Shown piece by piece: positions 2,679 to 52,095 of a DNA stretch of 53,130 bases (positions are counted from its first letter, which is position 1; each line of letters starts with the position of its first letter). The notes below the pieces were generated by a model. It ran no database searches and was not told where the DNA came from. It saw only the letters and a program-made list of their open reading frames with translations. A program made the translations under genes and the position numbers. The stretch comes from a virus, in IMG/VR virus record IMGVR_UViG_3300030430_003035, positions 1 through 53,130 of that record, one strand, 5' to 3'.

Positions 2679-3005
2679 TCACCCCATCTTCGGATACAAA
2701 CCGTTCAGTTCCTCAGAGTCTGTTAAGTAGCACCAAAGGCATCCAATAATATTTTGCGGGGGCCATGCATACACACACCCGCTCGGAGGTGTGAGTGCAT
2801 ACCCACAGGATATGACTCCATTGCCCAAAGTGTCCAACATTCTATGCATAGTCTTGTAGAACTTTGTTCTTCTTGGTTGCTTGAATTGACCTTGACCTAT
2901 TACATAGGTCTTTTTTGTCTTGACCACCTCTCCAGACTCTACTTCTACATAGAAGTACCAAGTTTGAATAGTTTCGTAAGTCTTTGCTTTCTTTTTCATA
3001 AGCAT
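2679..3005 (-). CDS. Hypothetical protein (106-108 aa)
   Basis: A 108-residue protein with a basic N-terminal half (KTYETIQTWYFYVEVES) and a Cys/Trp/Pro-rich C-terminal half containing several Cys residues. It starts in the ATGCTTATG context. The tRNA-like element at 3,024-3,097 lies immediately upstream of its start in the transcript. Function unknown. Confidence 0.65.
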   Translation of the reverse strand: MLMKKKAKTYETIQTWYFYVEVESGEVVKTKKTYVIGQGQFKQPRRTKFYKTMHRMLDTLGNGVISCGYALTPPSGCVYAWPPQNIIGCLWCYLTDSEELNGLYPKMG

Positions 3006-3023: not shown

Positions 3024-3097
3024 GTAGAAGAGCGGTGGGAATCGAACCCACAAAAACCATTCGCCCTGTCCGCCTTTGACTACCTTACCGCTTCTAC
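3024..3097 (-). ncRNA. tRNA-like element A (tentative)
   Basis: On the minus strand a canonical T arm is present: 5-bp stem GTGGG/CCCAC with loop TTCGATT (3,035-3,051). A 7-bp pairing GTAGAAG/CTTCTAC (3,091-3,097 with 3,024-3,030) closes around it, with a CG/CG pair next to the T arm and a two-base bulge. I could not fold a D arm or an anticodon loop with U33. It may be a degenerate tRNA, a tRNA-like structure, or part of a larger RNA that includes the inverted repeat at 3,111-3,180. Confidence 0.45.
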
Positions 3098-3110
3098 CAT
3101 CTTCGAATCT

Positions 3111-3180
3111 TTGCACTACAGCGGAGGCAGGTAGCCCTTCAATCCCCAAGGCATCGGAGATTTTACAATGTGTAGTGCAA
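3111..3180 (-). repeat. Inverted repeat 5' of tRNA-like element A
   Basis: TTGCACTACA at 3,111-3,120 and TGTAGTGCAA at 3,171-3,180 are perfect 10-bp inverted repeats separated by 50 bases. In the minus-strand transcript this would form a long stem directly 5' of element A. The open frame that crosses it (3,006-3,194) looks like an artefact of structured-RNA composition. Confidence 0.6.
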
Positions 3181-3757: not shown

Positions 3758-4654
3758 TTAGGGTTTGTTTTTAAAAATATCAGCCTCAACATCTTCCCAT
3801 AAATCCATTACCTCATCAACAGCGTCAAGCAAGTAGGCGTTACATTTCATACACTCTGAGTTGTAATTCACATCAGTGTCTTGAGTCCCGCATACATTAC
3901 AGTCATACGTTCCTTCCAGAGGTGCTTGTGCCGTGAAGTCAATAAAATCATCTACGTCTGATAACTCATCCGGATTAGGGAAGAAAGACTCATTGTAGGT
4001 TTTGATATCCTCTTCATCGTCAAAGTAGCCATCGTCTTGTCCCCAATCGTACGTGTAAGAACTCCCGCTTGAAACAGCCGTACTCCCGTAGTACCTGATC
4101 GCCTTCGTGTGTGAGTCATTGCTGAACCAATTGTCTCCAATCCATTCGCCAAGTTTCTCCCCGAATATGCGGTACTCGCCCTTGTCGTCCAAGAATATCA
4201 ATTTGTTTGTGCCTCCTAAATACTCGTAGATAGCATCCTCAATAAACATATTGTCAAGCATCTCCGTGCTAACATTAGGTATGGTGCTAAGTAATTCCGT
4301 AAACTCTGCGGTGTCAGATTTGTCCTTTGTACCGAATCCACGAATAACACCATTGTGTACGAGTCCGAGTTCGTTCGTTACGAAGAACGGGTGTAGGTAC
4401 TCCTCGCTCATACCGTGAGTAGCAATACGGAAGTGTAACAGCATAGGTTGCTCGCCTGATGCTGAACGCTTGACCTCCGTATATCGTTGATAAAATTCAT
4501 CAAATGAATTACCACCTGTGTTGGGAAACTTTTCGGCTACAAGTTTGCCGTCTTGTATGAACAGCATGCCTGCGCCATCGTCATTGTATGTCCAACAATT
4601 GGACAGTTTTTTCTTAGGCAACATCTTGCCTGCATTCATAATTGCAATACACAT
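3758..4654 (-). CDS. Class II glutamine amidotransferase
   Basis: A 298-residue protein with an N-terminal class II (Ntn-type) glutamine amidotransferase domain. The start is fixed at 4,654, not 4,660, because this enzyme class needs Cys as residue 2 (MCIAIMN) to act as the nucleophile after Met removal. Supporting motifs are HFRIATHG (about residues 74-81) and LVHNGVIRG (about 98-106), the usual glutamine-binding blocks. The C-terminal third is acidic and holds two CxxC pairs (YDCNVCG and SECMKCN, about 249-272), likely a zinc ribbon. It should release ammonia from glutamine for the amidoligase encoded just downstream. Confidence 0.88.
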   Translation of the reverse strand: MCIAIMNAGKMLPKKKLSNCWTYNDDGAGMLFIQDGKLVAEKFPNTGGNSFDEFYQRYTEVKRSASGEQPMLLHFRIATHGMSEEYLHPFFVTNELGLVHNGVIRGFGTKDKSDTAEFTELLSTIPNVSTEMLDNMFIEDAIYEYLGGTNKLIFLDDKGEYRIFGEKLGEWIGDNWFSNDSHTKAIRYYGSTAVSSGSSYTYDWGQDDGYFDDEEDIKTYNESFFPNPDELSDVDDFIDFTAQAPLEGTYDCNVCGTQDTDVNYNSECMKCNAYLLDAVDEVMDLWEDVEADIFKNKP

Positions 4655-4711
4655 AAGCATAGTTGTGCGGTGTTATCCTCTCGCACTCTTGAGTTTGGTT
4701 AAACTATTATT

Positions 4712-6760
4712 TTAAATTGCTACCTTGTCTAGGTATTTTGCTGTTTCTTCATTGTCCATATCGTACGCTGACCCGAAGGTGTTGCTTAGTCGGGTAGTAG
4801 CCTCAAACGTATTTGATACAATGATGTTACCCTTGATTTTGCGGTTCTTGAGTCTACGGACTGCACTCTTGATGAACACTCCAACACCATCGCTCGTGAA
4901 GTCGTAAGACGAGTACAGGTCGTCTGCGAACTGAGCGTATAGGCTGACAATCTTGTGTATCATGTCCACGCTGTAAACCTTGCGTAGTAGTCTGTGCAGT
5001 TTACTCTTAGGGTTGAGCATCATCGAAATCACATTAAGTGGTTTTAAGTTTTGATTCTCGCAAACAATACGCATGAGGTCTCGCCTCCACAAGAGGTTCG
5101 TTACGTTACGTACAGCGGGTGGTAGACGTAACTCTACATACTTGTTCTTGATGTGTATAGCAGAGTATTTACCTGCATTCTTGTAGTCAGAAGGCTTGCG
5201 TTTTATCTGCGAGTATGAGTTGCCTAATCGGTGTCTCCATATCGTTAAGAACAAAGGCACGAAGGCTTGTATGCTATCGAAGAAAGCCTCACCACTTTTA
5301 CCAATCTGTCCTATGTTGATGTGTCCCCCACAATTACTTGTGTAGTCTGCGCTGATGTGTTCAACAAGCATTCTGCTTACAAAACCTTCGCCGTTCAAGG
5401 CAATATCAATATCATCCGTAAACAAGTCATATACAGGGCTTACTAACTCGTACCCGTCATTCCCAAGCGAACCGTCTGACTCGCGACACCATTTGGTGTC
5501 GTCTACCTCATCGAGGTCATAGTCATCAAGTAATTGCTCATCTTCTTTCTCCACCTCAAAGCCAATGGTAAATTTCGTGTCATTATTGTACAGTATTTTA
5601 CGAAATCCGCTGTGGTATTCGTGAGTGCGCTCATATCGTGGCTCGCGGTTAACGTACTCCTCGTTGCGGTCATCCCACCATACATAGTTGTTTTCGTCAT
5701 CGTGGTGGTAATACTCGCCGTCACTATCACAATACAGCAAGTCATCAATCCAATCGTACTCGCCTTCACGACTACCTGCGGTTATCATTGCTATACTGTC
5801 GCTAAAATCCGGCAACCAAACAAAATTTCCGCTTACTAACTCAACGACTTCATCGTCATCAAAAGGTGTAAGTATTATGGTTGACTGCCCGCCATCAACG
5901 TCTACATCATAATACCTGATCGCGACATTTGAATGTATGTACTCGCCCTCATGTTGGCTTTGTGATGTTAACACAAGTGCTTCATCAGAAGATATTGTGT
6001 TACCATCGTAATCCAATACAAAATCTTTCATAGACCTTTTTTTATTTAATTCAACAAAATTTTCAACAATCTTTATGTTCATTCTTATCGCACGTGTTTT
6101 AGGACCCAAAGAGCCCGCTTCCCCCAAAGCATTCTCAAGGCTTCTTACGAAGGATGCTAATTTTTTTACCATTCTCATGCGGGATACTCGATATTCTTCA
6201 ATTGTGGCTTGATTAAAACCCTCCTGCTCAAAGTACTCAAGCCTCTTTGAGTGGAAGTTGATGCTATTTATCAAATCGTACGTCCACCTTAGTGAGTTGT
6301 ACATGAATGCTCCAAGAGCATTTTGTCCTGTGAGTGTGTGGTCACGTAAATAAAACATATCGAACCCACTTGCCTTATACAGAGTTGCCTTCTCGCCTAT
6401 GCTTAGTACGTCTGGAATCAGCGCGTACTTTCGCGAACCCTCACTAAAAATCATTGACTCATCACTCCACTCAAATTGTAATAATTTGAAACCGTCTATT
6501 TGGGGCAGTGTCAAATCATCTAAACTACGTTGCGTTACTTCGTACACAAGTTTTCTGATTTTCCTCATCTGTGTTTGAAAGGTCTCCATTAAAGTGTATT
6601 TCGGTATAAGACCCGTCGCACCCGGATGTACCCTCGCTCCATGCACACTGCTATACAAACCGGGTCCTCGTTCACGTTGCACAAGATGTCCAAAGTCATC
6701 CCTTTTGAACAACGTGACAATCAGACCTCTAAAGTCATACTCAATTAAATTCATAGTCAT
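4712..6760 (-). CDS. Amidoligase (COOH-NH2 ligase family) large protein
   Basis: About 682 residues. The C-terminal half carries the glutamine-synthetase-like amidoligase fold: TIGFEVE near residue 400, a Gly/His motif GGHINIG near 477 and the basic RLPPAVRN near 545. These match the GxExE-type metal/ATP-binding signature of COOH-NH2 ligases. The N-terminal region (1-230) is unrecognised. The centre (about 335-375) is extremely Asp/Tyr/Trp-rich. I place the start at MTMNLIEYDF (6,760) or the ATG six bases later, since the longer frame runs towards tRNA-like element B. With the adjacent amidotransferase it should form amide or peptide bonds on an unknown acceptor. Confidence 0.82.
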   Translation of the reverse strand: MTMNLIEYDFRGLIVTLFKRDDFGHLVQRERGPGLYSSVHGARVHPGATGLIPKYTLMETFQTQMRKIRKLVYEVTQRSLDDLTLPQIDGFKLLQFEWSDESMIFSEGSRKYALIPDVLSIGEKATLYKASGFDMFYLRDHTLTGQNALGAFMYNSLRWTYDLINSINFHSKRLEYFEQEGFNQATIEEYRVSRMRMVKKLASFVRSLENALGEAGSLGPKTRAIRMNIKIVENFVELNKKRSMKDFVLDYDGNTISSDEALVLTSQSQHEGEYIHSNVAIRYYDVDVDGGQSTIILTPFDDDEVVELVSGNFVWLPDFSDSIAMITAGSREGEYDWIDDLLYCDSDGEYYHHDDENNYVWWDDRNEEYVNREPRYERTHEYHSGFRKILYNNDTKFTIGFEVEKEDEQLLDDYDLDEVDDTKWCRESDGSLGNDGYELVSPVYDLFTDDIDIALNGEGFVSRMLVEHISADYTSNCGGHINIGQIGKSGEAFFDSIQAFVPLFLTIWRHRLGNSYSQIKRKPSDYKNAGKYSAIHIKNKYVELRLPPAVRNVTNLLWRRDLMRIVCENQNLKPLNVISMMLNPKSKLHRLLRKVYSVDMIHKIVSLYAQFADDLYSSYDFTSDGVGVFIKSAVRRLKNRKIKGNIIVSNTFEATTRLSNTFGSAYDMDNEETAKYLDKVAI

Positions 6761-6797
6761 TCTAATGTGTGTGTAACCTGCCCTACACACTTGGGCT

Positions 6798-6889
6798 TGG
6801 GGGACTGAGTGGGACTCGAACCCACAACGCGCCCTCCGACTCCGCTACTAACCAAACCAATGCAAAAAAATAGTCGGTGCGCTCAGTCC
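6798..6889 (-). ncRNA. tRNA-like element B with encoded CCA, no D arm
   Basis: On the minus strand a perfect 7-bp acceptor stem GGACTGA/TCAGTCC (6,883-6,889 with 6,802-6,808) encloses a canonical T arm, GTGGG-TTCGAGT-CCCAC (6,809-6,825). Discriminator C (6,801) is followed by an encoded CCA (6,800-6,798). The region between acceptor and T arm, where D and anticodon arms should be, instead forms one long hairpin: GCGC and CCGACT pair with AGTCGG and GCGC around a loop of about 30 bases. No D arm is visible. This is a three-way tRNA-like structure, not a standard tRNA. Confidence 0.6.
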
Positions 6890-6909
6890 GTTTATAGTGT
6901 GGTCTCCAC
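6886..6909 (-). repeat. Repeated leader of tRNA-like element B
   Basis: The plus-strand sequence AGTCCGTTTATAGTGTGGTCTCCAC reads directly into the 5' end of element B on the minus strand. It recurs at 7,848-7,873 before element D. It contains the small palindrome GTGG-TCT-CCAC. It may be a processing signal, a promoter or a trace of element duplication. Confidence 0.6.
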
Positions 6910-6981
6910 TACATCAAATCATCCTCACAAACGTAGGATAAATATCTGAGAATCAGTGTTAAAGGTTTGTTAAAACCATTC

Positions 6982-7440: not shown

Positions 7441-7482
7441 TGAGTGTAGGGGGAATCGAACCCCCTCGTGTACCATACACCC
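7441..7482 (-). ncRNA. tRNA-like element C (acceptor plus T-arm minihelix)
   Basis: On the minus strand GGGTGTA/TACACTC (7,476-7,482 with 7,442-7,448, one G-U pair) is directly stacked on a perfect T arm, GGGGG-TTCGATT-CCCCC (7,449-7,465). Only a 10-base linker lies where D and anticodon arms would be. This is the geometry of a tRNA top-half minihelix of about 41 nt. A separate 7-bp inverted repeat ATGGACT/AGTCCAT (7,484-7,525) lies 5'. An alternative is a longer, mismatched acceptor starting further upstream. Confidence 0.45.
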
Positions 7483-7529
7483 TATGGACTCATACTTTCG
7501 GTTAGCCTAGAACTTAAAAGTCCATCCAT

Positions 7530-7664
7530 CTACGCTGACCTAACCCGGCATACAGGGACGCATCGCTTAAACCGGGTGTGATGCGCCCGAAGGAAAGTAA
7601 ACACGCCATATAGTTTACTTTTACGATAGTGGTTTCGCCTACTATCAACCCAAAAGATGCACAT
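7530..7664 (-). CDS. Possible small basic Cys-containing protein (44 aa)
   Basis: This frame starts MCIFWVDSRRNHYRKSK right after the stop of the zinc-ribbon gene and ends near element C. It is very basic, with a CVPVC pair near the end. The same stretch also holds hairpins (GATAGT/ACTATC and GTAAAC/GTTTAC), so it could instead be structured RNA. Confidence 0.35.
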   Translation of the reverse strand: MCIFWVDSRRNHYRKSKLYGVFTFLRAHHTRFKRCVPVCRVRSA

Positions 7665-7772: not shown

Positions 7773-7788
7773 AAAGCAATTAATTTAG

Positions 7789-7852
7789 GGGACTACGAGC
7801 ATCACGAATGCTCAGTACGACAAGGCATAGTTATACCTTTCGTAGATAGTCC
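7789..7852 (-). ncRNA. tRNA-like element D, 64 nt, no D arm
   Basis: On the minus strand GGACTAT/GTAGTCC (7,846-7,852 with 7,790-7,796, one G-U pair) encloses a perfect 5-bp T-arm-like hairpin GAGCA-TTCGTGA-TGCTC. Between them one long hairpin forms (TACGA-AAGG pairing with CCTT-TCGTA). Layout and acceptor start match element B, and both share the repeated 5' leader. The T loop is non-canonical (T instead of A58) and CCA is not encoded (CTA instead). Confidence 0.5.
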
Positions 7853-7873
7853 GTTTTAGGTGTGGTCTCCACC
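7848..7873 (-). repeat. Repeated leader of tRNA-like element D
   Basis: AGTCCGTTTTAGGTGTGGTCTCCAC on the plus strand matches the leader before element B at 6,886-6,909, with only small differences in the middle. Confidence 0.6.
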
Positions 7874-7882
7874 GCCAACAAG

Positions 7883-8104
7883 TTACTTGCGCTTGGCTCT
7901 ACGAGCCTCACGCTGGGCTTGTGCCCTGTACACCTTGCGGTCTATCTGCTCGGCGTACCTTATCTCAAGTGCATCGGCTTTCATCTTGCCTCGTGCCTTA
8001 CGTTTGCTTGAGTTTGCGGTCTTGCCTCCAAGTGAAGGTGCGCTCACCACTCGGACTACGTACTCGTAGCCCTTGTGGTTGCGGTGTGTTGCGAACATAC
8101 CCAT
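7883..8104 (-). CDS. Small highly basic protein (73 aa)
   Basis: A 73-residue protein whose C-terminal half is a long Arg/Lys/Ala helix ending RREARRAKRK-like, with a short beta-rich N-terminus (GYEYVVRVVSAPS). The charge suits nucleic-acid binding. It overlaps the upstream gene by one base. No family recognised. Confidence 0.7.
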   Translation of the reverse strand: MGMFATHRNHKGYEYVVRVVSAPSLGGKTANSSKRKARGKMKADALEIRYAEQIDRKVYRAQAQREARRAKRK

Positions 8105-50680: not shown

Positions 50681-51460
50681 TTAAATTTCCCCTTGAATAA
50701 AATACGTAGACGTGCTCTTTCCACTTTCGTAGTGCCTCTTGATTTCGCTCAAGGCACGAGCCACCTTACGTTCGCCAGAGGCAAGGGTATCCTCCGTTGC
50801 TTTGTATACAGCGGGTAAGTATGGATATGATTTCTCCTGTACCACCCAATAAAAATCTTTACAACCAAACGCGCGCGTATAAAGAAATGCTTGTATGTCG
50901 TACCCAAAGACACGAACGTCTCTTGGAAATCCTTTAATACTGCGTGATGATTTACTGTCTGAAATAAAACCTTTTCCAAGACAGTCTAAGAACCCCCGAA
51001 AGGGGATTGTCTCTCCGTTGATTTCAAGCCTCTGAAGAAACTCAACCTGATAATCCCCATCAAGGTATATGTTTAGGATTTTAGAATCATCCAAACGAGT
51101 AATCATATCAATACACTTTTGGTAGTCCTCAATACCTAATATTGTTTTATCCTTTGCAAGTTCCTCTTGTGCGACCTTCCATTCCTTATAGGCTTTTGTT
51201 ACTCTTGGATTCTTACCTCCCAGATCTTGTATGATTTCAGTGTCGTCCATAACATGAAACGTGTTGTCAAACTCGTGAGGTGTAAACAATAGGCAATCAT
51301 ACGCAGTACCAAAGGTAAGAGCATCTGACTCTTTCTTTAACTTTCCTTGCATGTACAACTCAAACAGCGCCATGTCTTGCAAGGCATACTTAATTGAAGA
51401 GTACGATAGGTATTTCTTGCCTGTCTTCTCTACTAAAGATTTAAACCATTCATTAGTCAT
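50681..51460 (-). CDS. RecE-like PD-(D/E)XK exonuclease (259 aa)
   Basis: A 259-residue nuclease of the exonuclease VIII/DUF3799 type: FRGFLDCLGKGFISDSKSS (about residues 150-168) carries the D...DxK active site, followed by FGYDIQAFLYTRAF (about 182-195) and FYWVVQEK (about 199-206). It should resect double-stranded ends to give 3' tails for the annealing protein encoded immediately upstream in the same operon (four-base overlap). Confidence 0.82.
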   Translation of the reverse strand: MTNEWFKSLVEKTGKKYLSYSSIKYALQDMALFELYMQGKLKKESDALTFGTAYDCLLFTPHEFDNTFHVMDDTEIIQDLGGKNPRVTKAYKEWKVAQEELAKDKTILGIEDYQKCIDMITRLDDSKILNIYLDGDYQVEFLQRLEINGETIPFRGFLDCLGKGFISDSKSSRSIKGFPRDVRVFGYDIQAFLYTRAFGCKDFYWVVQEKSYPYLPAVYKATEDTLASGERKVARALSEIKRHYESGKSTSTYFIQGEI

Positions 51461-51984
51461 ACTAATTTGTCAAGTTTACTTTGCTGTTCTTTACTGAGTG
51501 TTTGCCCGTACTTCTCCTTGATTTGATTTAAACGTGTAGCACGTTCCGGTTTATTCTTACCCTCCTTCACATAGTTTACAGCGCTTGCGTATATGTCTGA
51601 ACTACCTTTAGTGTTGTTGCTGTCTTGCTTTTTGATAGCCATGTCAACTTCATCCGCTGTGGCTATAGATGTTTCGATGCCTATACCCAAGAATCCAAGC
51701 GCTCTACCTACGGCTGAGGTCTCACAGTTTTCTACAAAGGATGTTTGATTAATACGTGAAGAAGATTTATCTTCTTGAGCCATTCCTTGAGCAATGACCG
51801 CTCCTTCTTTATTGCTGATTGTTGCGCGAACTACACAAGATGATTCATCTATATGTAATAGTTCCGTTGTTAAGGCAAAGCCTTTGTACTCAGAAAGAGT
51901 TCGGAAAGCAATGACACGTTGATTAACCTCAACATACTGCTTACCCTTGATGTTCGTTGTCTTGAACTGATAAGTGTTACTCAT
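51457..51984 (-). CDS. Single-strand annealing protein (ERF/Rad52-like)
   Basis: A 175-residue protein with YVEVNQRVIAFR (about residues 17-28), a beta-sheet core, and the strongly conserved ENCETSAVGRALGFLGIG (about 83-100), typical of phage ERF-type single-strand annealing proteins. The C-terminus is a variable helical tail. It pairs with the RecE-like exonuclease. tRNA-like element E lies directly upstream of its start. Confidence 0.72.
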   Translation of the reverse strand: MSNTYQFKTTNIKGKQYVEVNQRVIAFRTLSEYKGFALTTELLHIDESSCVVRATISNKEGAVIAQGMAQEDKSSSRINQTSFVENCETSAVGRALGFLGIGIETSIATADEVDMAIKKQDSNNTKGSSDIYASAVNYVKEGKNKPERATRLNQIKEKYGQTLSKEQQSKLDKLV

Positions 51985-52003: not shown

Positions 52004-52095
52004 TGGACGAGCGAGGAATCGAACCTCTTAGTCTAAACCTAACGTATGTGTCAATACTTTTAAAACCACTCCGTGCACCATGCAAGCACTCGTCC
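52004..52095 (-). ncRNA. tRNA-like element E (candidate tRNA, isotype unresolved)
   Basis: On the minus strand a perfect 7-bp acceptor GGACGAG/CTCGTCC (52,089-52,095 with 52,005-52,011) encloses a T arm with canonical loop TTCGATT and a 4-bp stem GAGG/CCTC. The 60-base middle is too long for a class I tRNA. A 3-bp D stem (CTT/GAG) is possible, but no standard anticodon arm forms; candidates are around TTTTAAAA or the 4-bp hairpin TTAG-GTTTAGA-CTAA. It could be a class II tRNA (Leu-like) that I failed to fold, or a tRNA-like structure. Discriminator A, no encoded CCA. Confidence 0.55.

Follow-up and report, generated by a model that had tools for sequence, protein, structure and literature searches.

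A D-armless tRNA-like RNA in the leader of an amidoligase-like phage gene, a possible processing signal in its messenger

The 53,130-nucleotide DNA of a marine-type Bacteroidota phage, analysed here over its whole length (the window; IMG/VR record IMGVR_UViG_3300030430_003035) carries, in front of an amidoligase-like gene, a tRNA-like RNA, element B, whose shape is conserved among relatives while its letters change, and whose structure is under selection. Judging from its sequence and surroundings, we see about an even chance that the 5' leader of the amidoligase-like operon contains, in element B, a cis-acting processing domain of tRNA-like form, i.e. a substrate of host RNase P and RNase Z; B is more probably a messenger cutting signal than a working tRNA.

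Given that the terminase and portal match phrog_6681 and phrog_6547, and that a 1693-aa structural protein matches the C-terminal domain of the crAss muzzle, we assign the window to a crAss-like-related phage of Bacteroidota; its terminase also matches Cellulophaga, Flavobacterium and Bacteroides phages. Relatives were found in IMG/VR via the terminase and via the pattern of the leader described below, and the close ones are environmental contigs. The pattern searches gave 29 and then 58 stretches, several of the 58 being chance matches in coding sequence (likely so for L118, L121, L129 and L134), and 27 matches in genome contigs, scattered over unrelated phyla, were taken as chance. A blastn search of the region against phages gave no match, and an IMG/VR scan with the amidoligase-like protein gave no relative confirmed by tblastn.

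Structure and conservation of element B

The earlier note described a perfect 7-bp acceptor, a canonical T arm and a long hairpin with a loop of about 30 bases at 6798-6889, and all three are present exactly there, on the minus strand (Table 1). The RNA was assigned to this strand because its G-U pairs would become A-C mismatches on the other; a plus-strand structure was ruled out by these pairs, the T-loop letters and the gene orientation, the leader, pseudoknot and amidoligase-like gene all being on the minus strand. From 5' to 3', B reads GGACTGA GCGC A CCGACT (30-nt loop) AGTCGG AGG GCGC GTT GTGGG TTCGAGT CCCAC TCAGTCC C CCA. The minimum free energy fold and the centroid coincide in a three-way junction of acceptor, long hairpin and T arm at -33.7 kcal/mol, a value reached by 8 of 200 shuffles (z -2.1). 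In a strict scan for a 5-bp T arm with an acceptor of at least 6 Watson-Crick pairs, B is one of the two sites that pass, where about 0.1 matches are expected per window-sized Markov sequence.

Table 1. Coordinates of the RNA elements and genes around element B in the window
Feature	Position	Strand	Remarks
Element B, tRNA-like RNA	6798..6889	minus	5' end 6889, 3' end 6798
B, acceptor	6889-6883/6808-6802	minus	GGACTGA/TCAGTCC, 7 Watson-Crick pairs
B, P2a	6882-6879/6832-6829	minus	GCGC/GCGC
B, P2b	6877-6872/6841-6836	minus	CCGACT/AGTCGG
B, U/G-rich loop	6871-6842	minus	30 nt
B, T arm	6825-6809	minus	GTGGG-TTCGAGT-CCCAC; 5-bp stem, loop TTCGAGT
B, discriminator and CCA	6801; 6800-6798	minus	C; CCA
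H-type pseudoknot	6769..6796	minus	between B and start codon
Pseudoknot stem 1	6796-6793/6783-6780	minus	GCCC/GGGC
Pseudoknot stem 2	6790-6784/6775-6769	minus	GTGTGTA/TACACAC
Amidoligase-like protein	4712..6754	minus	680 aa; directly 3' of B
300-aa protein	3758..4660	minus	next after amidoligase-like gene; homologous in relatives
Leader hairpin of B	6895..6911	minus	GTGGAGACCACAC at 6909-6897, then TATAAAC, then GGACTGA
-7 box, Bacteroidota type (TAnnTTTG)	6928..6935	minus	TACGTTTG; 5' of leader B; shared by L008, L012, L016
Element A, paralogous three-way-junction RNA	7786..7852	minus	acceptor GGACTAT/GTAGTCC, long hairpin TACGA..TCGTA, hairpin GAGCA-TTCGTGA-TGCTC, then CCTA
Leader hairpin of A	7859..7873	minus	core as in leader B, GTGGAGACCACAC at 7872-7860
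Basic protein	7883..8104	minus	73 aa; C-terminal RAQAQREARRAKRK (arginine-rich motif); stop codon 10 nt before leader A

Taken by itself, the long hairpin does not reach significance in any of the single sequences (p 0.06-0.29), and its proof is comparative. Eight divergent lineages were compared (the window, L008, L012, L016, L097, L035, L111 and L122), and in this reduced alignment 16 of the 20 pairs of B have changed on both sides, with 98.8% of the cells pairing. The helix strands were aligned by hand, MAFFT having misaligned the helices of full-length B, and since this favours the structure, slid and shuffled controls were used: slid strands paired at 35-43%, and none of 500 shuffles reached either the pairing or the double-change value. 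Choosing strands by hand inflates the pairing, not the variety of compensations. Compensatory change covers the acceptor (from GGACTGA/TCAGTCC to GGGGTGT/GCACCCC and GGGGCAC/GTGCCCC), the T stem and both parts of the long hairpin, which occurs as GCGC/GCGC with CCGAC/GTCGG, as GTAC/GTAC, as TACA/TGTA with CACCA/TGGTG, as CATA/TATG with TACTC/GAGTA and as GCCG/CGGC with TATGT/ACATA. All 14 B sequences fold individually with closing stem, long hairpin and short hairpin. The paralogous element A shows 7 of 18 pairs changed on both sides and full (100%) pairing. The U/G-rich loop of B often contains UUGGUUA, resembling a tRNA D loop, and one might speculate that it contacts the T loop.

Conservation of the tRNA-like details is uneven. 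The canonical T arm claimed by the earlier note holds for B of the window, but its loop is not conserved: TTCGAGT is confined to the window's subgroup, L035, L104, L111, L114 and L122 have TTCGTGA or TTCATGA, and the A elements are also non-canonical, several with AGCGAGA. Nor did the encoded CCA, which had been presented as a key feature, prove to be conserved, since it occurs in the window and L008, with CTA or CAA elsewhere (whole ends CCCA, CCTA, ACTA or TCAA). The discriminator (C, A or T), base 75 and the acceptor sequence vary as well. What is kept is C74 and A76, invariant in 19 of the 19 listed phage elements with widely different acceptors, although not every lineage among them is independent. 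The Bacteroidales genome that stands in for the host group has C74 in 32 of 32 tRNA genes while positions 75-76 vary, so the phage elements end as the tRNA genes of that genome do.

Window B has the 7-bp acceptor and the 5-bp T stem with 7-nt TTCRANN loop of a canonical tRNA; a D arm and an anticodon arm with anticodon were not found in it by ARAGORN run on the window. The anticodon arm of D-armless mitochondrial-type tRNAs is likewise missing, the covarying long hairpin standing in its place. ARAGORN reported no tRNA in the window with introns allowed or not, and its mitochondrial mode applied to B yielded only a forced, poor mtRNA-Thr model that includes a D arm. Rfam gave nothing at gathering score and, at E up to 5, no tRNA-family match (RF00005; 29-bit cut-off) across B. 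The proposal of a D-armless tRNA-like RNA is supported, the covariation in relatives being strong. Other families were rejected: the tmRNA model matches nothing but a T arm elsewhere, at 7449-7465 (16.7 bits against 47), YrlA / Y RNA reaches 19.4 bits (E 0.49) against a cut-off of 69, and plastid UTR families score far under their cut-offs. In L016 the homologue of B (2219-2306, minus) is called tRNA-Gln(ttg) by ARAGORN, which forces it into a cloverleaf whose D stem has 2 bp; the D and anticodon stems are not real, being contradicted by the covarying long hairpin, and tRNA finders can thus annotate such elements falsely as phage tRNAs.

Three further minus-strand sites in the window bear a T arm or resemble a tRNA. 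The element at 52005-52095 (acceptor GGACGAG/CTCGTCC, T loop TTCGATT, ACTA end) lies 21 nt before the ATG of ORF 51457-51984 and gives a weak tRNA-Sec match (24.5 bits, below cut-off); no counterpart was found 5' of the same gene in relatives. At 7442-7620 a T-arm site (GGGGGTTCGATTCCCCC TACACTC ACTA) sits within a longer conserved structured stretch, whose homologue in L012 (minus, around 2767) is fused to element A. The stretch 3026-3170 holds a T-arm-like GTGGGTTCGATTCCCAC, some 20 nt 5' of the ATG at 3005, and upstream of it a large hairpin, TTGCACTACA..TGTAGTGCAA.

Leader, exchangeable slot and downstream genes

A leader hairpin, GTGGNGACCACAC..AAACGGAC, stands directly 5' of both A and B. 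In terminase-linked contigs, where A and B form a conserved pair in the same order and on the same strand, it is present as GTGGWGACCACAC..AAACGGAC directly before each of them, and its flanking pair, of which there are several types, is a standard one in 29 of 35 distinct leaders. Dozens of viral contigs have this hairpin, preceded by a gene for a small arginine-rich protein; about 30 distinct leaders lie 10-64 nt 3' of such a gene. The C-terminus of these basic proteins reads R-A-x-x-Q-R-x-x-R-R-A-K-R or close to it, nearly identical in eight divergent proteins; a tblastn search with the arginine-rich protein, run against phages and plasmids, gave no match. The TAnnTTTG box upstream of leader B is a putative promoter.

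The slot behind the leader holds different RNAs in different phages. Slot A of L111, L114 and L125 is occupied by a genuine tRNA-Tyr(GTA) (47.9 bits in L111, against a gathering score of 29), that of L119 and L122 by an acceptor/T minihelix between the same flanks, while in L092 and L105, at 2416-2481 in the latter, a twister-sister ribozyme lies between leader and next gene (37.9 and 38.4 bits, respectively; RF02681 gathering score 34). The two contigs that pass are related, and the twister-sister cut-off was not reached in 15 other leader records tested. The exchange of tRNA, minihelix and ribozyme behind one leader is our main argument that the slot serves RNA processing.

Other contents were also seen. 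Five leader sites (L085 2658, L086 997, L102 3993, L123 9731 and L128 3240) show by eye a closing stem with GUGCA.A near the 5' side and, in most of them, GCUCAAAC at the 3' side, and so resemble twister-sister RNAs; they score below the Rfam twister-sister cut-off and are possibly a new ribozyme variant. In L087 (10600), L089 (4390) and L108 (311) a different RNA with a long stem comes after the leader, GACAAACCTTAAG..CTTAGGGTTTGTC in L087; its core, GCGGATAnGTG..GTGYGCCTTGTYG, is conserved and resembles the middle hairpin of element A. L113, L115, L124, L127, L133 and L139 have only a short hairpin (CACGG..CCGTG) between leader and start codon, and neither tRNA-like RNA nor ribozyme in the slot.

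The pseudoknot between B and the start codon is retained in most B lineages with its 9-nt loop and both stems, the stem letters varied; it is absent in L035 and L104. The amidoligase-like gene pointed out in the earlier note follows B directly in every lineage that is readable there; the linkage is real. Its product shares 55% identity between the window and L016, with the motifs TIGFEVEKE and CGGHIN invariant. Family scores are weak: the PF12224 profile matches one of eight members at E 0.11, phrog_7469 three of eight with a best E of 0.0021, and tblastn gives 8e-3 to a Porphyromonas phage amidoligase. The protein is therefore no more than a likely amidoligase. The L128 homologue of the next, 300-aa protein begins MCIAILNP and by eye resembles a class-II glutamine amidotransferase. 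In a related phage, L167 (MW202828), an intergenic hairpin, CTCGTGTCGTTAACGACACAACAAAA, is repeated at 4865 and 5155 before genes, the amidoligase homologue included, and is perhaps an analogous leader of different sequence.

Candidate functions of element B

In the proposed mechanism, leader hairpin, B and gene would be transcribed as one RNA in the order leader hairpin, tRNA-like three-way junction, pseudoknot and start codon. With its 7-bp acceptor stacked on a T-like stem of 4-5 bp that bears a 7-nt loop, and with N-C-N-A behind them, B would offer RNase P and RNase Z the portion of a pre-tRNA by which they measure their substrates. For RNase P the gauge is the stack of acceptor and T stems together with the tRNA elbow; RNase Z clamps the elbow in pre-tRNAs that lack CCA (PMC4919913). 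In agreement with such substrates, the acceptor stacked on the T stem makes about 12 bp (7+5 bp in window B, between 7+3 and 7+5 in the relatives), the loop has 7 nt, and the 3' end carries C74 as in the host group, represented by the one stand-in Bacteroidales genome. Host RNase P and RNase Z would cut at the ends of B, between AAAC and GGAC on the 5' side and after the discriminator on the 3' side. B would thus be released from the leader of the amidoligase-like mRNA, or at any rate cleaved inside it, and the pseudoknot would form the new mRNA 5' end. RNase P also processes mRNAs, riboswitches and phage RNAs, helped by pairing of a 3' RCC (PMC12710915); by analogy C74 would suit this pairing and the varied base 75 would suit it less. 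The alternatives in the slot, tRNA-Tyr, minihelix and twister-sister ribozyme, all cut or would be cut as well. Among the roles offered by the earlier note a processing signal fits this context best, the cleavage itself being inferred. The model gives no role to the conserved long hairpin with its U/G-rich loop, and the non-canonical T loops of L035, L104, L111, L122 and the A elements speak against it.

A different, and rather unlikely, explanation is that the arginine-rich protein encoded just 5' of leader A binds the leader hairpin, in the manner of lambda-type N proteins at boxB, and that tRNA-like domain and pseudoknot serve antitermination or translational control instead of cleavage. 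The closeness of its gene to so many leaders, its near-invariant C-terminal motif, the covariation of the leader hairpin and the position of the pseudoknot next to the start codon are in its favour, but it leaves the exchange of tRNA, minihelix and ribozyme and the constancy of C74 unexplained, and no search gave homology to N, the likeness being one of motif only. We regard as improbable that B, once set free as a stable small RNA, acts in trans as a decoy, occupying the CCA enzyme, RNase P and RNase Z or tRNA-cutting defence nucleases: the acceptor and T features are retained and B is conserved and paired with a paralogue, yet it always lies just 5' of the same gene and start codon, offers no anticodon arm to anticodon nucleases and has no conserved T loop.

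The substrates of amidoligases are believed to be amino acids and ATP rather than aminoacyl-tRNA. The suggestion that B donates an aminoacyl group to the amidoligase-like enzyme could draw on the conserved gene linkage; it is disfavoured by the varying acceptor, discriminator and base 75, the T loop that deviates in several lineages and the absent anticodon arm, and we find it the least credible reading. Scarcely more probable is a decaying tRNA gene or a chance fold. The real tRNA in slot A of three relatives means that tRNA-like forms may derive from a tRNA, but across diverged phages every helix has changed by compensation, which shows selection on structure and contradicts this reading. 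Returning to the processing domain, we tentatively propose, with less confidence than for B itself, a modular leader in a broad phage group, made of an arginine-rich protein gene, its hairpin target, an exchangeable cutter, a pseudoknot and a gene, the cutter being a tRNA, a tRNA-like RNA lacking D and anticodon arms, a minihelix or a twister-sister ribozyme. If this is true, host tRNA-processing enzymes and self-cleaving ribozymes would be interchangeable maturation routes for phage messages, and message maturation would be controlled by a phage RNA-binding protein.

Comparison with known systems

In a limited literature library, searches on D-armless tRNAs in phages and on twister-sister ribozymes with phage tRNA-like RNAs gave no report of this arrangement. 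It offers a tRNA-like RNA without the decoding half, selected for in phage messengers, and a natural comparison of tRNA, shrunken tRNA and ribozyme in one slot; it makes testable whether phages co-opt RNase P and RNase Z for mRNAs, whether tRNA-like structures originate from tRNAs and why twister-sister ribozymes occur in phage leaders.

Lambda-type N proteins bind boxB, and here too an operon of a phage has a gene for a small arginine-rich protein with a short RNA hairpin beside it; the hairpin and loop are different, and the likeness is one of motif alone. Like D-armless mitochondrial tRNAs, B is without a D arm and retains acceptor and T arm; unlike them it also lacks the anticodon arm, one long hairpin replacing both, and is not a decoder. 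It has none of the sequence or fold of the twister-sister ribozyme (RF02681), which takes the same position behind the leader in L092 and L105. Two known kinds come nearest, viral leaders with a tRNA-like fold and ribozymes that neighbour phage tRNAs. HCV and pestiviruses, for example, have tRNA-like structures in the 5' regions of viral mRNA that are cut by RNase P (PMC5723415), which likewise combine a tRNA-like fold in a viral mRNA leader with proposed RNase P recognition; here the genome is phage DNA and the bacterial host has RNase P in the same compartment, with a perfect acceptor and T arm, paired copies and a slot common to a real tRNA and a ribozyme. HDV-like theta ribozymes adjoin phage tRNAs and have been proposed to process the tRNA 3' end (PMC10879173). 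They too belong to phages thought to infect Bacteroidota among others and bring RNA-cutting elements together with tRNA genes in transcripts, whereas in the present mRNA leaders a single leader hairpin is followed by either a tRNA-like RNA or a ribozyme.
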